Shown here: positions 12,358 through 54,676 of the stretch, piece after piece
Layout of the letters: every line of letters begins with the position of its first letter
Numbering within the stretch: the stretch's first letter is position 1
Source: Egicoccus sp. AB-alg6-2
GTDB lineage: Bacteria; Actinomycetota; Nitriliruptoria; Nitriliruptorales; Nitriliruptoraceae
Assembly: GCF_041821025.1 (NCBI RefSeq)
Contig: NZ_JBGUAY010000005.1
Coordinates: 124,001 to 188,000, forward strand
DNA length: 64,000 nt
Direction of reading: 5' to 3'
The notes under the pieces: generated by a model
Database searches by the model: none
Seen by the model: only the letters and a program-made list of their open reading frames with translations
What the model was told of the DNA's origin: nothing
Position numbers and translations under genes: made by a program

Positions 12358-12380
12358 CCTCGGCGACACCTCGACATCGG

Positions 12381-12676
12381 CGTGATGCGAGCCGGCGGCC
12401 GTGATGTTGGGGCGAGGCCCACCTCGGTCTCGCCGCACCGCCACGCCGAGGCATCACCGCGCACGGCCGTGATATCAGCCGGCGGCCGTGATCCGAGCCG
12501 GCGGCCGTGATGTTGGGGCGAGGCCCACCTCGGTCTCGCCGCACCGCCGCGCCGAGGCATCACCGCGCACGGCCGTGATGCCAGCCCGCGGCCGTGATGC
12601 GAGCGTGCGGCCGTGATGCCGGGGCGAGGCCCACCTCGGTCTCGCCGCACCGCCACGCCGAGGCATCACCGCGCAC
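12381..12676. repeat. 106-bp direct tandem repeat array, about 2.8 copies
   Basis: The core beginning GGCGAGGCCCACCTCGG starts at 12411, 12517 and 12623, exactly 106 bases apart. The first two full units differ at roughly nine positions; the third is cut off after GCGCACG. A partial unit precedes the first core. The word CGGCCGTGAT recurs seven times inside the array, and each unit can form a hairpin. It lies between the two convergent genes ending at 12357 and 12734. Confidence 0.9.
12556..12582. other. Inverted repeat inside the 106-bp unit
   Basis: GGCATCAC at 12556-12563 pairs perfectly with GTGATGCC at 12575-12582 around an 11-base loop. The equivalent place in the first unit keeps only ATCAC/GTGAT. 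No T-run follows, so it is not a textbook terminator, but it could act in RNA from either convergent gene. Confidence 0.6.
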
Positions 12677-12687
12677 GTCCTCGGCGG

Positions 12688-45238: not shown

Positions 45239-47116
45239 GTGGCCACCGAGGTCGAACTGCCCCAGCTGGGCGAGTCCGTCACCGAGGGCGTCATCACCGC
45301 CTGGCTCGTCGAGGTCGGTGACGAGGTCGACGTCGACCAACCGATCGTCGAGATCTCGACCGACAAGGTCGACACCGAGATCCCCTCCCCCGTCGCCGGC
45401 ACCGTGCAGGAGCTGAAGGCGAACGTCGACGACACCATCGAGGTCGGCCAGGTCATCGCCGTCATCGGCGAAGGCGCCACCGGCGGCTCGGACGACGGCG
45501 GCGACGCCGGCGCCGACACGGACGCCGCCACCGGCGACGACCAGCAGGTGGCCCCCGAGCCCGAGCCCACCGAACAGGGCCAGGACGCGTCGGCGCAGGG
45601 CGCACCCGCCTCCGGCGGCGGCGAGTACGTCGGCGGCGCCGGCGGCACGCCGACCGGCCCGTCCGGCGGGGAACAGCCCTCCGGTGCGCGGATCCAGAGG
45701 GGCACCGACCACGACGTCGACCTCATCGTGCTCGGTGGGGGGACCGGCGGCTACTCGACCGCGCTGAGGGCCGCGCAACTCGGGCTCGAGGTCGCCCTCG
45801 TGGAGAAGGACAAGGTCGGCGGCACCTGCCTGCACTGGGGCTGCATCCCGACCAAGGCCGTGCTCCAGACCGCCGAGGTGGCCGAGACCGCGCAGGACGC
45901 CGCCGACTTCGGCGTCACGCTCGACTACCAGGGCATCGAGGTGAAGGCGCTCAACGCCCACAAGGACGCCGTGGTCGACAAGATGTGGAAGGGACTGCAG
46001 GGGGCGCTGAAGGGCCGCGGTGTCGAGACCGTCGCCGGCACCGGCAGGCTGACCGCGAAGGACACCGTCGAGGTCACCGGCGAAGGCGGCGAGACGCGCA
46101 CCATCAAGGCGCCGGCGATCGTGGTCGCCACCGGCTCCGCCCCCCGCGAGCTGCCGTTCGCGAGGTTCGACGGCAAGCGCATCATCTCCTCGGACCACGC
46201 GCTCAACCTCACCAAGCTGCCGAAGAAGGCCATCGTCCTCGGCTCCGGCGCCGTCGGCATGGAGTTCGCGACCGCCTGGAACGCGTTCGGGGTCGAGGTG
46301 ACGGTCGTCGAACTCGAGGACCGGCTGCTGCCGCTCGAGGACGCCGATGCCTCCAAGGAGATCGAGCGCGCGTTCCGCAAGCGTGGCATCACCGCGATGA
46401 CGTCCGCGAAGTTGTCCGAGGTCAACGCCACCTCGCGCTCGGTGACCTGCAAGGTCGAGACGAAGAAGGGTGTCGAGGAACTGAAGGCGGACCTGCTGCT
46501 GGTCGCCGTCGGACGCCGCACGGTCACCGAGGACGCCGGGCTCGAGGACGTCGGGGTCGAGATCGACGAGCGCGGCTTCGTGGCCGTCGACGAGTACTGC
46601 CGGACCTCCGTCGAGGGTGTCTGGGCCGTCGGCGACGTGATTCCGACGCTCGGGCTGGCACACGCCTCGTTCGCCGAGGGCATGCTGGTCGCCGATCAGC
46701 TCGCCGGCCTCGAGGTCCTGCCCATCGACTACAAGGGCGTCCCACGCGTCACCTACTCCCACCCCGAGGTCGCGTCGGTCGGCTACACCGAGGCCCAGGC
46801 CAAAGACGCCGGCTTCGAGGTCGTGCTCGAGAAGTACCCGTTCCAGGCGCTGGGTCGTGCCGCCATGGTCAAGGCCACCGGCATGATCAAGCTGGTCGCG
46901 GAGAAGGACGACGACGCCGAGGGCGGCGCCGGCCGCGTCCTGGGCGTCCACATCGTCGGCCCGCGGGCGACCGACCTCATCGCCGAGGGCCAGCTGATCT
47001 ACAACTGGGAGGCGCTGCCCACCGACGTGGCGCACCTCGTCCACGCCCACCCGTCGTTCAGCGAGGCGATCGGCGAGGCGCACCTCGCGCTGGCCGGCCG
47101 CGCGCTGCACGGCTGA
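45239..47116 (+). CDS. lpd: Dihydrolipoyl dehydrogenase with N-terminal lipoyl domain
   Basis: 625 residues. Residues 1-80 are a lipoyl domain with the modified Lys in EISTDKVDTEIPSP, then an acidic Gly/Asp/Ala linker, then a complete E3 from ~160: FAD loop VLGGGTGGYSTAL, redox pair GGTCLHWGCIPTKAV, NAD loop LGSGAVGMEFA, AVGDVI, and the C-terminal His-Glu pair in HAHPSFSEAIGEAHL. Reoxidises dihydrolipoyl groups for 2-oxoacid dehydrogenase and glycine cleavage. GTG 45239 with GAGGAG upstream. Lipoyl-E3 fusions are known but uncommon. Confidence 0.95.
   Translation: MATEVELPQLGESVTEGVITAWLVEVGDEVDVDQPIVEISTDKVDTEIPSPVAGTVQELKANVDDTIEVGQVIAVIGEGATGGSDDGGDAGADTDAATGDDQQVAPEPEPTEQGQDASAQGAPASGGGEYVGGAGGTPTGPSGGEQPSGARIQRGTDHDVDLIVLGGGTGGYSTALRAAQLGLEVALVEKDKVGGTCLHWGCIPTKAVLQTAEVAETAQDAADFGVTLDYQGIEVKALNAHKDAVVDKMWKGLQGALKGRGVETVAGTGRLTAKDTVEVTGEGGETRTIKAPAIVVATGSAPRELPFARFDGKRIISSDHALNLTKLPKKAIVLGSGAVGMEFATAWNAFGVEVTVVELEDRLLPLEDADASKEIERAFRKRGITAMTSAKLSEVNATSRSVTCKVETKKGVEELKADLLLVAVGRRTVTEDAGLEDVGVEIDERGFVAVDEYCRTSVEGVWAVGDVIPTLGLAHASFAEGMLVADQLAGLEVLPIDYKGVPRVTYSHPEVASVGYTEAQAKDAGFEVVLEKYPFQALGRAAMVKATGMIKLVAEKDDDAEGGAGRVLGVHIVGPRATDLIAEGQLIYNWEALPTDVAHLVHAHPSFSEAIGEAHLALAGRALHG
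45248..45519 (+). repeat. Copy 1 of a 272-bp lipoyl-domain duplication
   Basis: Bases 45248-45519 (in lpd) match 47183-47454 (in the E2 gene) at an offset of 1935 with only three differences seen by eye, all at third codon positions. Even wobble bases are shared, which points to recent duplication or gene conversion. Confidence 0.93.
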
Positions 47117-47176
47117 GGCGACCAAGTCGTCCGTCGTCGTCGCGACGTCGGACCCACACCGCACAGGAGAGCACCC

Positions 47177-48604
47177 GTGGCCGAGGTGGAGCTGCCCCAG
47201 CTGGGCGAGTCCGTCACCGAGGGCGTCATCACCGCCTGGCTCGTCGAGGTCGGTGACGAGGTCGACGTCGACCAACCGATCGTCGAGATCTCGACCGACA
47301 AGGTCGACACCGAGATCCCCTCCCCCGTCGCCGGCACCGTGCAGGAACTGAAGGCGAACGTCGACGACACCATCGAGGTCGGCCAGGTCATCGCCGTCAT
47401 CGGCGAAGGCGCCACCGGCGGCTCGGACGACGGCGGCGACGCCGGCGCCGACACCGACACGGACAGCGGCGACCAGGCCGCGGCGGACGACGAACCGACG
47501 GCCGACACCGAGCCGGAGGCAGACACCCAGCCGCCGGCGGAACCTGGACCGGCCAAGGCCGCGTCACCCAAGCCGGCACCCAGCGCCTCGACGGACGGTG
47601 GCGGCACCGCCGGTGAGAAGGCACTGACCTCGCCGTTGGTGCGGCGGCTGCTGCGCGAGGCCGGGTTGTCGACCTCGCAGGTCCAGGGCAGCGGACCCGG
47701 CGGGCGCATCACGCGTGAGGACGCCGAGCGCGCCGTGGCCAGTGGCGGCGAAGGGGCTCCGGCAGCTGCGGGCCAACCGGCGGCCGCGCCAGCCGCTGGC
47801 ACGGTGGCACCGCCTCCGGCACCCGCCGCGCCCAGCGACCGCAAGCGGCCCGAGGCCTCCCCGTTGCAGATCGACTTCGGCGGTCAGCGCGAGGTCACCC
47901 AGGAGCTCTCGCGGGTCCGCAAGGCGACGGCCAAGGCCATGATGACCGCGATGCAGACCACGGCGCAGCTCACCGCTGCGGTCGAGGTCGACGTCACCTC
48001 GATCATGCACCTGCGCGCCGCCTACAAGGACGCGTTCAAGGCCAAGGAGGGGGTCAGCCTCTCGCCGCTGCCGATCATCTCCCGCGCCGTGTGCATGGTG
48101 CTGCCGCGCCACCCGGCGCTCAACAGCACCATCGACATGGACTCGGGAACGGCGACGTTCCACAACTTCATCAACCTCGGCATGGCGGTGGACACCGAGG
48201 CCGGGCTGCTGGTCCCCAACGTCAAGGACGCACAGGACCTGACCGTGCCCGGACTCGCGCGCCGCATCGGCGACATCGCCGGGCGGGCCCGGTCGAAGAA
48301 GCTGCAGCCCGACGACATCTCGGGCGCGACGTTCACCATCACCAACACCGGCTCGCGCGGCACCCTGTGGGACACCCCGATCTTCACGCCACCGCAGGTC
48401 GCCATCCTGGCCACCTGCGCCATCGAGAAGCGCGCGGTCGTGGTTTCCGACGCCTACGGCGACTCCATCGCGATCCGGTGGATGACCTACCTGTGCCTGA
48501 GCTACGACCACCGGATGGTCGACGGCGCCGACACCGCGCGGTTCCTGCAGGACCTCAAGTACACGCTCGAGACCCACGACTTCACGCCGGAGCTCGGGCT
48601 CTAG
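47177..48604 (+). CDS. Dihydrolipoamide acyltransferase, E2 of a 2-oxoacid dehydrogenase (SucB-like)
   Basis: 475 residues: one lipoyl domain (1-78, Lys in TDKVDTEIP), a Pro/Ala/Asp linker, the E3/E1-binding domain SPLVRRLLREAGLSTSQVQG around 150-186, a second linker, and the catalytic core with active-site His in YDHRMVDGADTARF and the earlier TGSRGTLWDTPIF. Could serve 2-oxoglutarate, pyruvate or branched-chain complexes; no E1 gene lies nearby. GTG start 60 bases after lpd. Likely an operon lpd-E2-lipB-lipA. Confidence 0.93.
   Translation: MAEVELPQLGESVTEGVITAWLVEVGDEVDVDQPIVEISTDKVDTEIPSPVAGTVQELKANVDDTIEVGQVIAVIGEGATGGSDDGGDAGADTDTDSGDQAAADDEPTADTEPEADTQPPAEPGPAKAASPKPAPSASTDGGGTAGEKALTSPLVRRLLREAGLSTSQVQGSGPGGRITREDAERAVASGGEGAPAAAGQPAAAPAAGTVAPPPAPAAPSDRKRPEASPLQIDFGGQREVTQELSRVRKATAKAMMTAMQTTAQLTAAVEVDVTSIMHLRAAYKDAFKAKEGVSLSPLPIISRAVCMVLPRHPALNSTIDMDSGTATFHNFINLGMAVDTEAGLLVPNVKDAQDLTVPGLARRIGDIAGRARSKKLQPDDISGATFTITNTGSRGTLWDTPIFTPPQVAILATCAIEKRAVVVSDAYGDSIAIRWMTYLCLSYDHRMVDGADTARFLQDLKYTLETHDFTPELGL
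47183..47454 (+). repeat. Copy 2 of the 272-bp lipoyl-domain duplication
   Basis: Partner of 45248-45519. The match stops shortly before the acidic linker sequences diverge, so the copied unit is the domain plus the start of its linker. Confidence 0.93.
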
Positions 48605-48612
48605 GAGTTCTC

Positions 48613-49365
48613 GTGGACGAGCTCGCCCCGTCTCGACGCCCCGCCGCCGACCCGCGTTCCCTGCGGGCCGCCGGCGGGGCGCCGTTGGCGGTCCTGCGGC
48701 CGGGCACGGTCCCTTACCCGCTGGCGTGGGACTGGCAGCGGCGGCTTGCGCAGGCACGCGCCGACGGGGCGCTCGAACGCGACGTCGTCGTGCTCCTCGA
48801 GCATCCTCCGGTGTACACGCTGGGCCGCCGGGCCGATCGCACCAACCTGCTGTTCGACGAGGCGACCCTGCGGCGGCGAGGCATCGAGGTGGTGCCCGTC
48901 GACCGCGGCGGGGACGTGACCTACCACGGCCCCGGGCAGCTGGTCGGCTATCCGATCCTGCAGCTGGTCGGCATGCGCGTCGTGGACTACGTCCGGGCGC
49001 TCGAGGAGATCCTGATCCGCGCCCTCGCCGAGGTCGGCGTCACCGGTGCACGTTCGCCGGGCTACACCGGGGTGTGGGTCGGCGACGAGAAGGTCGGCGC
49101 GATCGGTGTGCGGATGTCGGCCGGCCGGGTCACCACGCACGGGTTCGCGCTCAACGTGCGGCCCGACCTCGACGACTTCACCGGCATCGTGCCGTGCGGG
49201 ATCGCCGATCGCGGCGTGTGCTCGCTGGCCAGCCTCGGTGTCGAGGTCACGGTCGACGACATGGCCGACCGGATCGAGGCGGCCATGACGCAGGTGCTCG
49301 GCGCTACCCTCGAACCGACCTCCCTGGACTCCCTTCTCCCCTCGATCTCGAAGGTCGCCTCGTGA
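48613..49365 (+). CDS. lipB: Octanoyl-[ACP]:protein N-octanoyltransferase LipB
   Basis: Moves octanoate from acyl-carrier protein to lipoyl domains. 250 residues: PVYTLGRRADRTN, the signature VDRGGDVTYHGPGQLVGYP, Lys in GVWVGDEKVGAIGVR, and the catalytic Cys region GIVPCGIADRGVCSLAS. GTG start with AGGAG five bases upstream, nine bases after the E2 stop. Its stop overlaps lipA (GTGA). ~20 extra N-terminal residues (Arg/Pro/Ala) look unstructured. Confidence 0.96.
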   Translation: MDELAPSRRPAADPRSLRAAGGAPLAVLRPGTVPYPLAWDWQRRLAQARADGALERDVVVLLEHPPVYTLGRRADRTNLLFDEATLRRRGIEVVPVDRGGDVTYHGPGQLVGYPILQLVGMRVVDYVRALEEILIRALAEVGVTGARSPGYTGVWVGDEKVGAIGVRMSAGRVTTHGFALNVRPDLDDFTGIVPCGIADRGVCSLASLGVEVTVDDMADRIEAAMTQVLGATLEPTSLDSLLPSISKVAS

Positions 49366-50399
49366 CCGATCGACCCGTCGTCCCGCCCGGTGCTCGCACG
49401 CTGAACGTGGTGGGCCGCGAGCAGATCCAGCGCGCCGGCGTGGTTCGCAAGGCCATCGACACCTCGCTCCCGCAGGGTCGCAAGCCCGACTGGCTGAAGG
49501 TCAAGGCCAGCTTCGGTGACAACTTCAAGGACGTCACCAAGCTGATGGAGGGCCTCGAGCTCAACACGGTCTGTGCGCAGGCGCGCTGCCCCAACATCTA
49601 CGAATGCTGGGAGATGCGCGAGGCCACGTTCCTGATCGGCGGCGAGGACTGCACCCGTCGTTGCGGCTTCTGTCAGATCAAGACCGGCAAGCCCAAGGGC
49701 TACGACGTCGACGAGCCACGTCGCGTCGCCGAGGCGGTCGAGCACCTCGAACTGCGCTTCGCCGTGGTCACCATGGTGGCCCGCGACGACCTCGACGACT
49801 CGGGGGCCTGGTTGGTGGCCGAGACGATCCGCCAGATCCGTGCCCGCACCCCCGACGTCGGTGTGGAGGTGCTGCCCAGCGACTTCGGGTACGGGCACGA
49901 CCCGATGAAGGGCGCAGCCGCCCTCGAACAGGTCGTGGCGGCCGAGCCCGACGTGTTCGCCTTCAACCTCGAGACCACACGGCGACTGTTCCCCGTGATT
50001 CGGCCGTCGTTCGACTACGACCGGGGCCTGGAGTTCCTGTCGCTGGCCCGCGAACGTTTCCCCGCGACCACCGCGGTGAAGTCGAACCTGATCGCGGGGA
50101 TGGGCGAGACCGACGAGGAGATCCTCGCCTGCATGCGGGACCTGAAGGCGGCCGGCGTCAACACCCTCACCATCGGCCAGTACCTGCAGCCCTCGGCCAA
50201 CCACCTCCACCTCGACCGCTACGTTCCGCCCGAGGCGTTCGCGCGCTTCCGGGCCTACGGCGAGGACGAGCTCGGGTTCGACCACGTCGAGTCCGGCCCG
50301 ATGGTGCGCTCGAGCTACCACGCCGGGCAGCAGGCCATCGACGCGAAAGCGTGGGCGCCGTCCGCCGGTCAGCCCGGAGCTCCGCTGCCGATCGTGTGA
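49362..50399 (+). CDS. lipA: Lipoyl synthase LipA
   Basis: Radical-SAM enzyme inserting two sulfur atoms into the octanoyl chain. 345 residues: auxiliary-cluster Cys in VCAQARCPNIYECW, radical-SAM CTRRCGFCQIKTG, and the C-terminal R-S-S-Y motif VRSSYHAGQQA that ligates the auxiliary cluster. GTG start overlaps lipB by four bases. ErpA encoded at 37859 is a likely cluster donor. Confidence 0.97.
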   Translation: MTDRPVVPPGARTLNVVGREQIQRAGVVRKAIDTSLPQGRKPDWLKVKASFGDNFKDVTKLMEGLELNTVCAQARCPNIYECWEMREATFLIGGEDCTRRCGFCQIKTGKPKGYDVDEPRRVAEAVEHLELRFAVVTMVARDDLDDSGAWLVAETIRQIRARTPDVGVEVLPSDFGYGHDPMKGAAALEQVVAAEPDVFAFNLETTRRLFPVIRPSFDYDRGLEFLSLARERFPATTAVKSNLIAGMGETDEEILACMRDLKAAGVNTLTIGQYLQPSANHLHLDRYVPPEAFARFRAYGEDELGFDHVESGPMVRSSYHAGQQAIDAKAWAPSAGQPGAPLPIV

Positions 50400-51927: not shown

Positions 51928-54615
51928 ATGAGTGCGATCGCCACGCCGCGTTCCCCGGAATCGGCCGACCCCCCCGTTCCATCGCCGTTGCGATGGGTCC
52001 GTCGCTTCCGCGACGGCACCGCGGACCAGCGGTTCCTGCTCGGCGGGAAGGGAGCGAACCTGGCCGAGATGACCCGCATGGGTCTGCCCGTCCCCACCGG
52101 GTTCACCATCACCACCGACGCGTGTCGCGCCTACCTCGCGTCCGGCGGCCTCCCCGAAGGATTGATCGACGAGCTCCGGGTCGTGGTCGCCGAGATGGAG
52201 CAGACGACCGGTCTGCGCTTCGGCGATCCGGACATCCCGCTGCTGGTCTCGGTGCGCTCCGGTGCCGCCTTCTCCATGCCCGGCATGATGGACACGGTGC
52301 TCAACCTCGGCCTCACGAACACGTCGCGGATCGGCCTCGCCGCCCGCACGGGCGATCCCTGGTTCGCCGCGGATGCCTACCGACGCCTGCTGGAGCTGTA
52401 CGCGAGCGTCGTGCTCGAGGTCGACGCCCAGACTCTTCACCGGGCAACGGGTCGGGTCCTGACCATGCACGGGGTCAAGGACGCCAGCGGACTCGACCTG
52501 ATCGGCCTCGAGGACCTCATCGGGGTGCTCGAGGTGACGATCGCCGATCAGTGCGACCGCCCCTTCCCCGACGATCCGTGGCAGCAGCTCGAGGAGGCCG
52601 TGGCGGCGGTCTTCCGGTCCTGGAACGGTCGCCGCGCCCGGGACTACCGCCGGGTCGAGGGCATCGCCGACGACCTCGGCACGGCCGTCAACGTCCAGCT
52701 GATGGTCTTCGGCAATGCCGGGACCGACTCGGGGACCGGCGTGGCCTTCACCCGCGACCCTGCCACGGGCCGACGGCGGCCTGTGGGTGACTTCCTGCTC
52801 AACGCACAGGGTGAGGACGTCGTGGCGGGGGTGCGCAACATCCTGCCGTTGGACCAACTCGCCGTGCACTTCCCCGACTGCGCCGTCGAGCTCGACCGCG
52901 TCATGCACGCGCTCGAGGTGCGCTACCGGGACATGTGCGACGTCGAGTTCACCGTCGAACACGGCGTGCTGTACATGCTGCAGACGCGGGTCGGGAAGCG
53001 CACCGCCATGGCTTCGCTGCGCATGGCGGTCGAGATGGCCGAGGAGGGCCTGATCACCCGCGAGGAAGCGATGCGGCGGTTCCGTACCGACGAACTCGAA
53101 CGTCTGCTGCACCCCCGATTCGATCGGCAGGCGTCGTACGAGGTGCTGACTCGAGGTCTGGCCGCATCGCCGGGTGCCGCATGTGGTCGGGCGGTGTTCG
53201 ACGCCGACGAGGCGCAGGCCCTTGCCGAGTCGGGCGAGCAGGTCCTGCTCGTGCGCACGAACACCTCGCCGGCCGACTTCCACGGCATGGTCGCGGCCCA
53301 GGGCGTCCTCACCAGCCGGGGTGGGCTCGTCAGCCACGCCGCCGTGGTCGCACGAGGTCTGGGGAAGCCGGCGGTGTGTGGCGCGGAGGAACTGGTCGTC
53401 GACCGCAGCGGTACGTTCGCCTCCGTCGGGAGTGTCCGGATCCGGGCGGGTGACCTGCTCTCGATCGACGGCACCACCGGCGACGTCGTGCTGGGCGAGG
53501 TACCGGTGCTGCCGCCGGACATGCCGCCCGAGCTCGAGCGCCTGTTGGCCTGGGCGGACGCGACCCGGCGCCTGGCCGTCATCGCCAACGCCGACACCGC
53601 GACGGATGCGGTGACGGCCCGCGACGCGGGGGCGACGGGGATCGGGCTGTGTCGAACCGAGCACCAGTTCCTCGGCGACCGGCTGCCCCTGGTCCAGGCA
53701 GTGATCCTGGCGGAGACGGACCAGGAGCGCCTGGCTGCGCTCGGCGCGCTCGAGCAGGTCCAGCAGGCCGATTTCGAGGCGCTGTTGAGGGTGATGGACG
53801 GGCTTGCCGTGACCGTGCGTCTGCTCGATCCTCCGCTGCACGAGTTCCTGCCCGAGCTCGACGGGCTGTTGGTCGCCGACGCGCGCGGGGAGCTGTCCCC
53901 GAAGGACGCCAAGCTGCTGGAGGCCGCGTTCGCCTGGCGGGAGGTCGACCCGATGCTGGGCATCCGCGGTGTGCGGCTCGGACTCCTGCTGCCAGGGGTG
54001 TACGAGGCCCAGGTCCGCGCCCTGCTCCGTGCCGCGGCGGCGCGGCAGCGGGCGGGCGGAGACCCGCGCGTCCGCATCATGATCCCTCTGGTGATCGACG
54101 CGAACGAGCTGTCGGCCGCCCTGGCCCTGGTGCGCCGTGCCGCAGGCGACGTGGAAGCGGAACTCGGCGAGGTGGTGCCGTTCCAGGTCGGCGCCATGGT
54201 CGAGACGCCCCGCGCCGCGTTCCTGGCCGGCCAGCTGGCACCGCTGGTCGACTTCCTCTCGTTCGGGACCAACGACCTGACCCAGATGACGTTCGGGTTC
54301 TCGCGCGACGACGTCGAGGCCCGCCTCATGCCCCACTACCTCGAACACGGTCTCCTGCCGGCCGATCCGTTCGCCACCCTCGACGAGGCCGGGGTCGGCG
54401 AGCTCGTCCGCCTCGCCACCGCGGCGGCCAAGGAGGCACGGCCCGTGATCGAGGTCAGCGTCTGCGGCGAGCACGGTGGTGACCCCGCCTCGATCCAGCT
54501 GTTCGAGCGGTACGGCCTCGACGACGTGTCCTGCTCGCCGTCGCGCGTCCTGGTGGCCAGACTCGCGGCCGCCCAGGCCGCGCTCGGCGAACGCGACACG
54601 GACCGGGACCGCTGA
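51928..54615 (+). CDS. ppdK: Pyruvate, phosphate dikinase
   Basis: Interconverts pyruvate + ATP + Pi and PEP + AMP + PPi. 895 residues: ATP-grasp part (FLLGGKGANLAEMTRMGLPVP, SVRSGAAFSMPGMMDTVLN), swivelling phosphohistidine domain with His470 in RGGLVSHAAVVARG, and PEP/pyruvate barrel with GIGLCRTEHQF and the Cys in VSVCGEHGGDP. Position 468, two before the His and usually Thr in PPDK, is Val. ATG start with GGAGG seven bases upstream. The final ~30 residues are Asp/Arg-rich. Confidence 0.95.
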   Translation: MSAIATPRSPESADPPVPSPLRWVRRFRDGTADQRFLLGGKGANLAEMTRMGLPVPTGFTITTDACRAYLASGGLPEGLIDELRVVVAEMEQTTGLRFGDPDIPLLVSVRSGAAFSMPGMMDTVLNLGLTNTSRIGLAARTGDPWFAADAYRRLLELYASVVLEVDAQTLHRATGRVLTMHGVKDASGLDLIGLEDLIGVLEVTIADQCDRPFPDDPWQQLEEAVAAVFRSWNGRRARDYRRVEGIADDLGTAVNVQLMVFGNAGTDSGTGVAFTRDPATGRRRPVGDFLLNAQGEDVVAGVRNILPLDQLAVHFPDCAVELDRVMHALEVRYRDMCDVEFTVEHGVLYMLQTRVGKRTAMASLRMAVEMAEEGLITREEAMRRFRTDELERLLHPRFDRQASYEVLTRGLAASPGAACGRAVFDADEAQALAESGEQVLLVRTNTSPADFHGMVAAQGVLTSRGGLVSHAAVVARGLGKPAVCGAEELVVDRSGTFASVGSVRIRAGDLLSIDGTTGDVVLGEVPVLPPDMPPELERLLAWADATRRLAVIANADTATDAVTARDAGATGIGLCRTEHQFLGDRLPLVQAVILAETDQERLAALGALEQVQQADFEALLRVMDGLAVTVRLLDPPLHEFLPELDGLLVADARGELSPKDAKLLEAAFAWREVDPMLGIRGVRLGLLLPGVYEAQVRALLRAAAARQRAGGDPRVRIMIPLVIDANELSAALALVRRAAGDVEAELGEVVPFQVGAMVETPRAAFLAGQLAPLVDFLSFGTNDLTQMTFGFSRDDVEARLMPHYLEHGLLPADPFATLDEAGVGELVRLATAAAKEARPVIEVSVCGEHGGDPASIQLFERYGLDDVSCSPSRVLVARLAAAQAALGERDTDRDR

Positions 54616-54632
54616 GCAGCAGCAGACCGCCC

Positions 54633-54666
54633 CGGGGCGGCCGGCGCCGTGCGCCCGGCCGCCCCG
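54633..54666. terminator. Stem-loop between ppdK and mscS
   Basis: CGGGGCGGCCGG and CCGGCCGCCCCG form a perfect 12-bp stem around a 10-base loop that can itself pair partly. It sits between two convergent stops (54615 and 54677), so it can serve both. Confidence 0.8.
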
Positions 54667-54676
54667 CGGCCCGTGT

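Follow-up and report, generated by a model that had tools for sequence, protein, structure and literature searches.

The window, by which we mean the whole 64-kb stretch of DNA analysed here, contains a gene for dihydrolipoyl dehydrogenase (E3), lpd, followed on the same strand by the gene of a dihydrolipoyl acyltransferase (E2) and then by lipB and lipA (Table 1). The lpd product matched TIGR01350 with 507 bits (cut-off 408.8) over residues 160–624, and its residues 4–76 matched the lipoyl domain PF00364 above the cut-off, so that a lipoyl domain stands N-terminal to a complete E3 and is joined to the E3 core by a long linker. An earlier note had placed a second lipoyl domain on E3; we observed that E3 has only one, which is the second of the operon. 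The E2 is of the SucB_Actino type (TIGR02927, 484.9 bits versus a cut-off of 423.45; PF00364, PF02817 and PF00198 were also matched). The lipoyl-lysine motif was found in both copies of the domain in the family genomes examined. The genome also encodes an AceE-type E1p (aceE) and an E1o of the Kgd/OdhA type, which has an E2-like domain but no detected lipoyl domain. Elsewhere in the window, we noted tandem direct repeats of ~105 bp, 94% alike, at 12378–12677, just past a 179-aa ORF, and a short inverted repeat at 54629–54670, just past a pyruvate phosphate dikinase-like ORF ending at 54615, which is perhaps a terminator.

Table 1. Coordinates of the lpd–E2 locus and its repeat within the 64-kb window
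Feature	Position	Strand	Remarks
lpd, lipoyl-E3 fusion (dihydrolipoyl dehydrogenase)	45239..47116	+	625 aa, GTG start
Copy 1 5′ edge	45239..45256	+	E3-specific bases kept in the genus; outside the putative conversion tract
Repeat copy 1: lpd lipoyl domain and start of linker	45246..45538	+	97.3% identity with copy 2, 293 bp
Homogenised core, copy 1	45257..45519	+	Single mismatch (45412) over 263 bp
Predicted lipoyl-lysine codon of E3, K43	45365..45367	+	Motif TDKVDTE; predicted from sequence
lpd linker	45479..45715	+	3′ end PSG-x-[RK]-[IV], common to several fused genera
E3 catalytic core	45716..47110	+	
E2 gene, SucB_Actino-type dihydrolipoyl acyltransferase	47177..48604	+	475 aa
Repeat copy 2: E2 lipoyl domain and start of linker	47181..47473	+	Direct repeat, 1935 bp downstream of copy 1
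Predicted lipoyl-lysine codon of E2, K42	47300..47302	+	Predicted from sequence
E2 peripheral subunit (E3)-binding domain	47624..47728	+	PF02817, residues 150–184
E2 acyltransferase catalytic domain	47888..48574	+	PF00198, residues 238–466
lipB (octanoyltransferase), next gene	48601..49365	+	NF010925, 208 bits, above cut-off; start codon approximate
lipA (lipoyl synthase), next gene	49401..50399	+	NF004019, 368 bits, above cut-off; start codon approximate

In an ungapped comparison (offset 1935) of 45248–45519 with 47183–47454, we observed exactly the three mismatches in 272 bp that the earlier note had reported from reading the letters. These lie at 45253, 45256 and 45412, each at a third codon position and each silent, so that the synonymous comparison gives three silent and no replacement differences. 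The pair was the strongest repeat in a self-BLAST of the window (E 5e-141; Table 1). The same note held that the genes share nothing outside the domain; the domain is indeed near-identical, but the similarity fades gradually into the linker, up to ~45538 and ~47473.

Next, the same 90-residue peptide was re-encoded independently with the local codon usage. On average ~38.7 of the 90 codons were expected to differ and the minimum in 20,000 draws was 20, as compared with the three observed. Chance is thus excluded as the cause of the near-identity. The simulation also bears on the idea that the copies are held alike without any exchange, by selection at the nucleotide level for codon bias, for RNA structure or for an overlapping signal. 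A GC content of 73% and a biased codon usage would be in its favour; under precisely this local usage, however, some 39 codons should differ. Moreover, silent sites change freely between species, and the copies have diverged in five of the genomes described below (G003, G018, G019, G026 and G030), which leaves this explanation a practically negligible chance.

We then compared the domain among the 12 genomes in which both copies are whole; these represent separate species and genera rather than a strain series of one species. Over 225 nt, the two copies of a genome matched at 222 positions in G000, 223 in G002, 225 in G004, 220 in G010, 225 in G014, 217 in G022 and 223 in G029; in a separate comparison, those of G005 matched at 216 of 222. 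Between genera of the family the matches were ~174–209 over 225 nt (~16–51 differences). Near-identical copies are present in seven genomes of five genera, with a sequence particular to each genome. In the maximum-likelihood tree the domains grouped mostly by genome and not by gene, and its starred branches alone force at least seven label changes. Forcing the E3 copies into one clade cost 228 log-likelihood units and was rejected (AU p 1.2e-52). Mean silent identity was 0.84 within genomes versus 0.67 between them, and none of 20,000 random pairings reached the within-genome mean; across genomes the orthologous (0.670) and paralogous (0.667) comparisons were equal. Because of codon bias, silent divergence plateaus near pS 0.43, and for this reason no dates are given.

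The comparison with relatives that the earlier note had called for thus showed, in most genomes, an own homogenised pair. Divergent, clade-specific copies, which that note had named as evidence to the contrary, were observed in one genus, g4; in G019 and G003 the copies are diverged over their length as well. The pS values of the diverged pairs (G003, G018, G019, G026 and G030) were 0.25–0.32. In g4 the copies are largely distinct and those of E2, three in number, group as a clade (100/99); two of its three genomes, G018 and G026, still have a central patch in which identical sites cluster (runs test, P ≤ 0.0006). The site-shuffling runs test is powerless for fully identical copies, hence P = 1 for G004 and G014. 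Genus g4 has largely escaped homogenisation. The divergence in g4, G019 and G003 shows that conversion may cease in a lineage and does not speak against its action in the genome of the window; homogenisation is recurrent.

The borders of the homogenised stretch were followed in the genus of the window, where three species have both copies (G000, G002 and G003). Here the 5′ edge, with a codon indel of 3 nt and the bases at domain positions 2 and 5 (45253 and 45256), separates E3 from E2, whereas species-specific sites common to both genes occupy domain positions 89 to 239. Between G000 and G002, 14 sites are of the genome type, two of the gene type and none of the cross type; in this genus gene-type sites occur solely at the 5′ edge and genome-type sites solely from position 89 on. 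As the edge bases are fixed in the genus, 45253 and 45256 are old gene-specific bases, which leaves 45412 as the sole difference within the homogenised tract. Such a mosaic of a gene-specific edge and a genome-specific interior is typical of conversion tracts. The tract ends vary between lineages: the homogenised stretch runs >100 nt into the linker in G004 and G022, whereas in G010 and G014 it extends past the start codon into upstream DNA, taking in the ribosome-binding site. The E2 linker of G019 contains a 37-aa module that is otherwise found only in the E3 linkers of genus g1. We also sought the direction of conversion among these copies and obtained no polarisation.

Near-identical repeats raise the question of assembly, since a short-read assembler may collapse a repeat or copy one unit into the other. 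Several draft contigs do end in or near the repeat, many of the relatives are fragmented drafts, and in G014 an assembly gap (Ns) lies just upstream of copy 1, which calls for caution on the perfect identity of its copies. Contig ends at the repeat are, however, what would be expected if the copies are near-identical in those genomes too. Repeat misassembly does not explain the single-contig assemblies G002 (223/225) and G010 (220/225), and the window's own copies lie within one 460-kb contig with distinct edges and flanks. The identity also extends by different lengths in different genomes. We therefore regard an assembly artefact as very improbable.

Lipoyl-E3 matches (E ≤ 1e-90) were present in 18 of the 35 genomes of the window's family, the named carriers being Nitriliruptoraceae MAGs and Salsipaludibacter albus. 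Direct reading of 69 loci outside the family, belonging to other families and phyla, showed no lpd–lipoyl fusion in any of them, and in these unfused loci E2 is usually the next gene after lpd. Among the loci sampled, the fusion was found only in Nitriliruptoraceae. Across a sample of 296 genomes from the phylum, E3 matches outside the family never reached the lipoyl part; this null is weak because the fused genes of G014 and G029 also aligned only from residue ~140, and it is the direct reading of the loci that counts. The G029 gene (L139) matched in two frames, with an apparently frameshifted linker, which reflects either a sequencing error or a decaying gene.

The earlier note had left recent duplication and ongoing conversion side by side. 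According to the former, the lipoyl domain of E2 was joined to lpd separately in each lineage, and the near-identity simply reflects youth; clustering by genome would also result. This would require many separate fusions at the same site within one family, even for sister species, with none among the 69 outside loci. The fused E3 cores instead fall on one side of a branch from their unfused relatives, although with a support of 38 that rises to 93 without G004. Many fused genes of several genera also have the motif PSGx[RK][IV] in common at the border of linker and E3 core, and it is absent from unfused starts. These two observations make a single old fusion likely. G004 (L137) is the most divergent fused E3; it lacks the junction motif and has a linker that copies that of E2, so it possibly represents an independent second fusion. 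Within genus g1 the duplication predates the species splits, as the E3-type 5′ edge is common to its species. Sister species thus keep this edge and the codon indel next to genome-specific interiors, and the edge would have been lost had the entire domain been newly duplicated. The fusion occurs across the family, yet the copies are near-identical genome by genome. Of the two readings, the conversion part is the one we retain: judged from these sequences, one old fusion with repeated conversion appears to fit better than recent duplication, and we consider independent recent duplications unlikely.

For the 17 genomes of the family in which no strong lipoyl-E3 match was found, we considered a loss of lpd by deletion between the repeats, an event that would keep a single intact E2. 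We rejected this, as fragmentation explains most of them: among 10 contigs carrying a close E2, the contig end falls in or at the lipoyl domain in five cases and within the linker or E2 core in another four. Genera g11 (G013, G024, G028, G032 and G034) and g14 (G016) showed no lipoyl-E3 and no close E2, just an E2 relative of 33–39%; they may lack the complex, or their drafts may be incomplete.

Taken together, ongoing gene conversion between the lipoyl domains of lpd and E2, following an early fusion in the family, is the best explanation, to which we assign a probability of about 0.9. Early in Nitriliruptoraceae, the E2 lipoyl domain would have been copied onto the N-terminus of lpd just upstream, making the copies direct repeats ~1.8–1.95 kb apart. 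Since then the two would have exchanged sequence repeatedly by intrachromosomal gene conversion, presumably through RecA-type homologous recombination between the direct repeats. A reciprocal exchange between them would delete the E3 core, so the surviving events would be conversions. The tracts would span the domain entirely or for the most part and, in certain lineages, reach into the neighbouring linker or the ribosome-binding site, with the gene-specific edges left outside. As a consequence, silent sites would be homogenised within a genome while drifting between genomes. Where divergence outruns conversion, as it may have done in g4, the copies would diverge and leave at most a short converted patch in the centre.

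A comparable case is mtrA-1/mtrA-2 of methanogens, in which domain-limited, long-lasting conversion followed a domain fusion (Wang et al. 2015, PMC4632066). In both systems the duplicated domain stays within a single operon and a single enzyme complex, and one of its copies is fused to a different partner domain; the common domain is homogenised over long times while the remainder differs. The mtrA genes are paralogous with different membrane domains, whereas the carriers here are an acyltransferase and a flavin disulphide reductase, unrelated proteins that have only the cofactor arm in common; here, moreover, one genus has escaped, and the tracts at times extend into linkers and DNA upstream. 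A survey of long-lasting concerted evolution in prokaryotes (Wang & Chen 2018, PMC6053082) mentions neither lipoyl nor pyruvate dehydrogenase in its main text.

The domain order of N-terminal lipoyl domain, linker and dihydrolipoyl dehydrogenase is that of P64k of Neisseria (PDB 1ojt, 1bhy; related chain 5u25) and of PdhD of Mycoplasma hyopneumoniae (PMC7873978). The closest actinobacterial E3s are unfused, which suggests that the fusion described here may be independent of P64k. We know of no description of homogenisation with an E2 domain for either P64k or the Mycoplasma PdhD. Among the papers searched, none linked lipoyl domain, dihydrolipoamide dehydrogenase and gene conversion, and none connected concerted evolution with lipoyl domains and pyruvate dehydrogenase. 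In other actinobacteria a single E2 can have tandem lipoyl domains, which are likewise repeats, and a few are near-identical (L095 100%, L073 94%, L077 93%), but these lie in one gene and most are 69–89% identical, whereas here the copies lie in two genes. In Kocuria rhizophila TA68 (L095, 6407–7054), where E2 has three lipoyl domains, two are identical to each other across 216 nt, and homogenisation may thus also occur within E2.

Lipoyl-bearing E3s and domain-limited conversion were thus each known separately and their combination is new, the converting unit being a cofactor arm common to two unrelated subunits of one complex. At this locus, domain-limited conversion between two genes that are unrelated in all other respects can be followed as a clean natural case, base by base throughout the family, with identical, mosaic and escaped lineages, and with tract lengths and borders visible in high-GC bacterial chromosomes. 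It is also a warning that trees of lipoyl domains, or of E2 or E3 including the lipoyl domain, will be misleading, and that the lipoyl repeat can break short-read assemblies.

The gene content resembles that of the corynebacterial PDH–ODH hybrid, with its AceE-type E1p, SucB_Actino-type E2 and OdhA/Kgd-type E1o with an E2-like domain (PMC7568260); the corynebacterial E3 is not described with a lipoyl domain, unlike the E3 of the window. Both domains are presumably lipoylated by LipB and LipA of the adjoining genes. By analogy with other lipoyl-E3s, the E3 domain would be lipoylated at K43 and either acylated by E1 or reduced and reoxidised, and its lipoyl group would serve as an extra acyl- or electron-carrying arm of a shared PDH/ODH complex. 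In C. glutamicum the two E1s have been speculated to compete for the lipoyl residues of E2 (PMC7568260), and a second arm on E3 could ease such competition. It is conceivable, though in our view rather doubtful, that selection favours the homogenisation, with conversion acting as a proof-reader that keeps the arms on two unrelated subunits equivalent, and with a lapse, as in g4, allowing the arms to specialise. If this were true, both E1s, the E2 and LipB/LipA of the PDH/ODH hybrid would have to treat the swinging arms as interchangeable.
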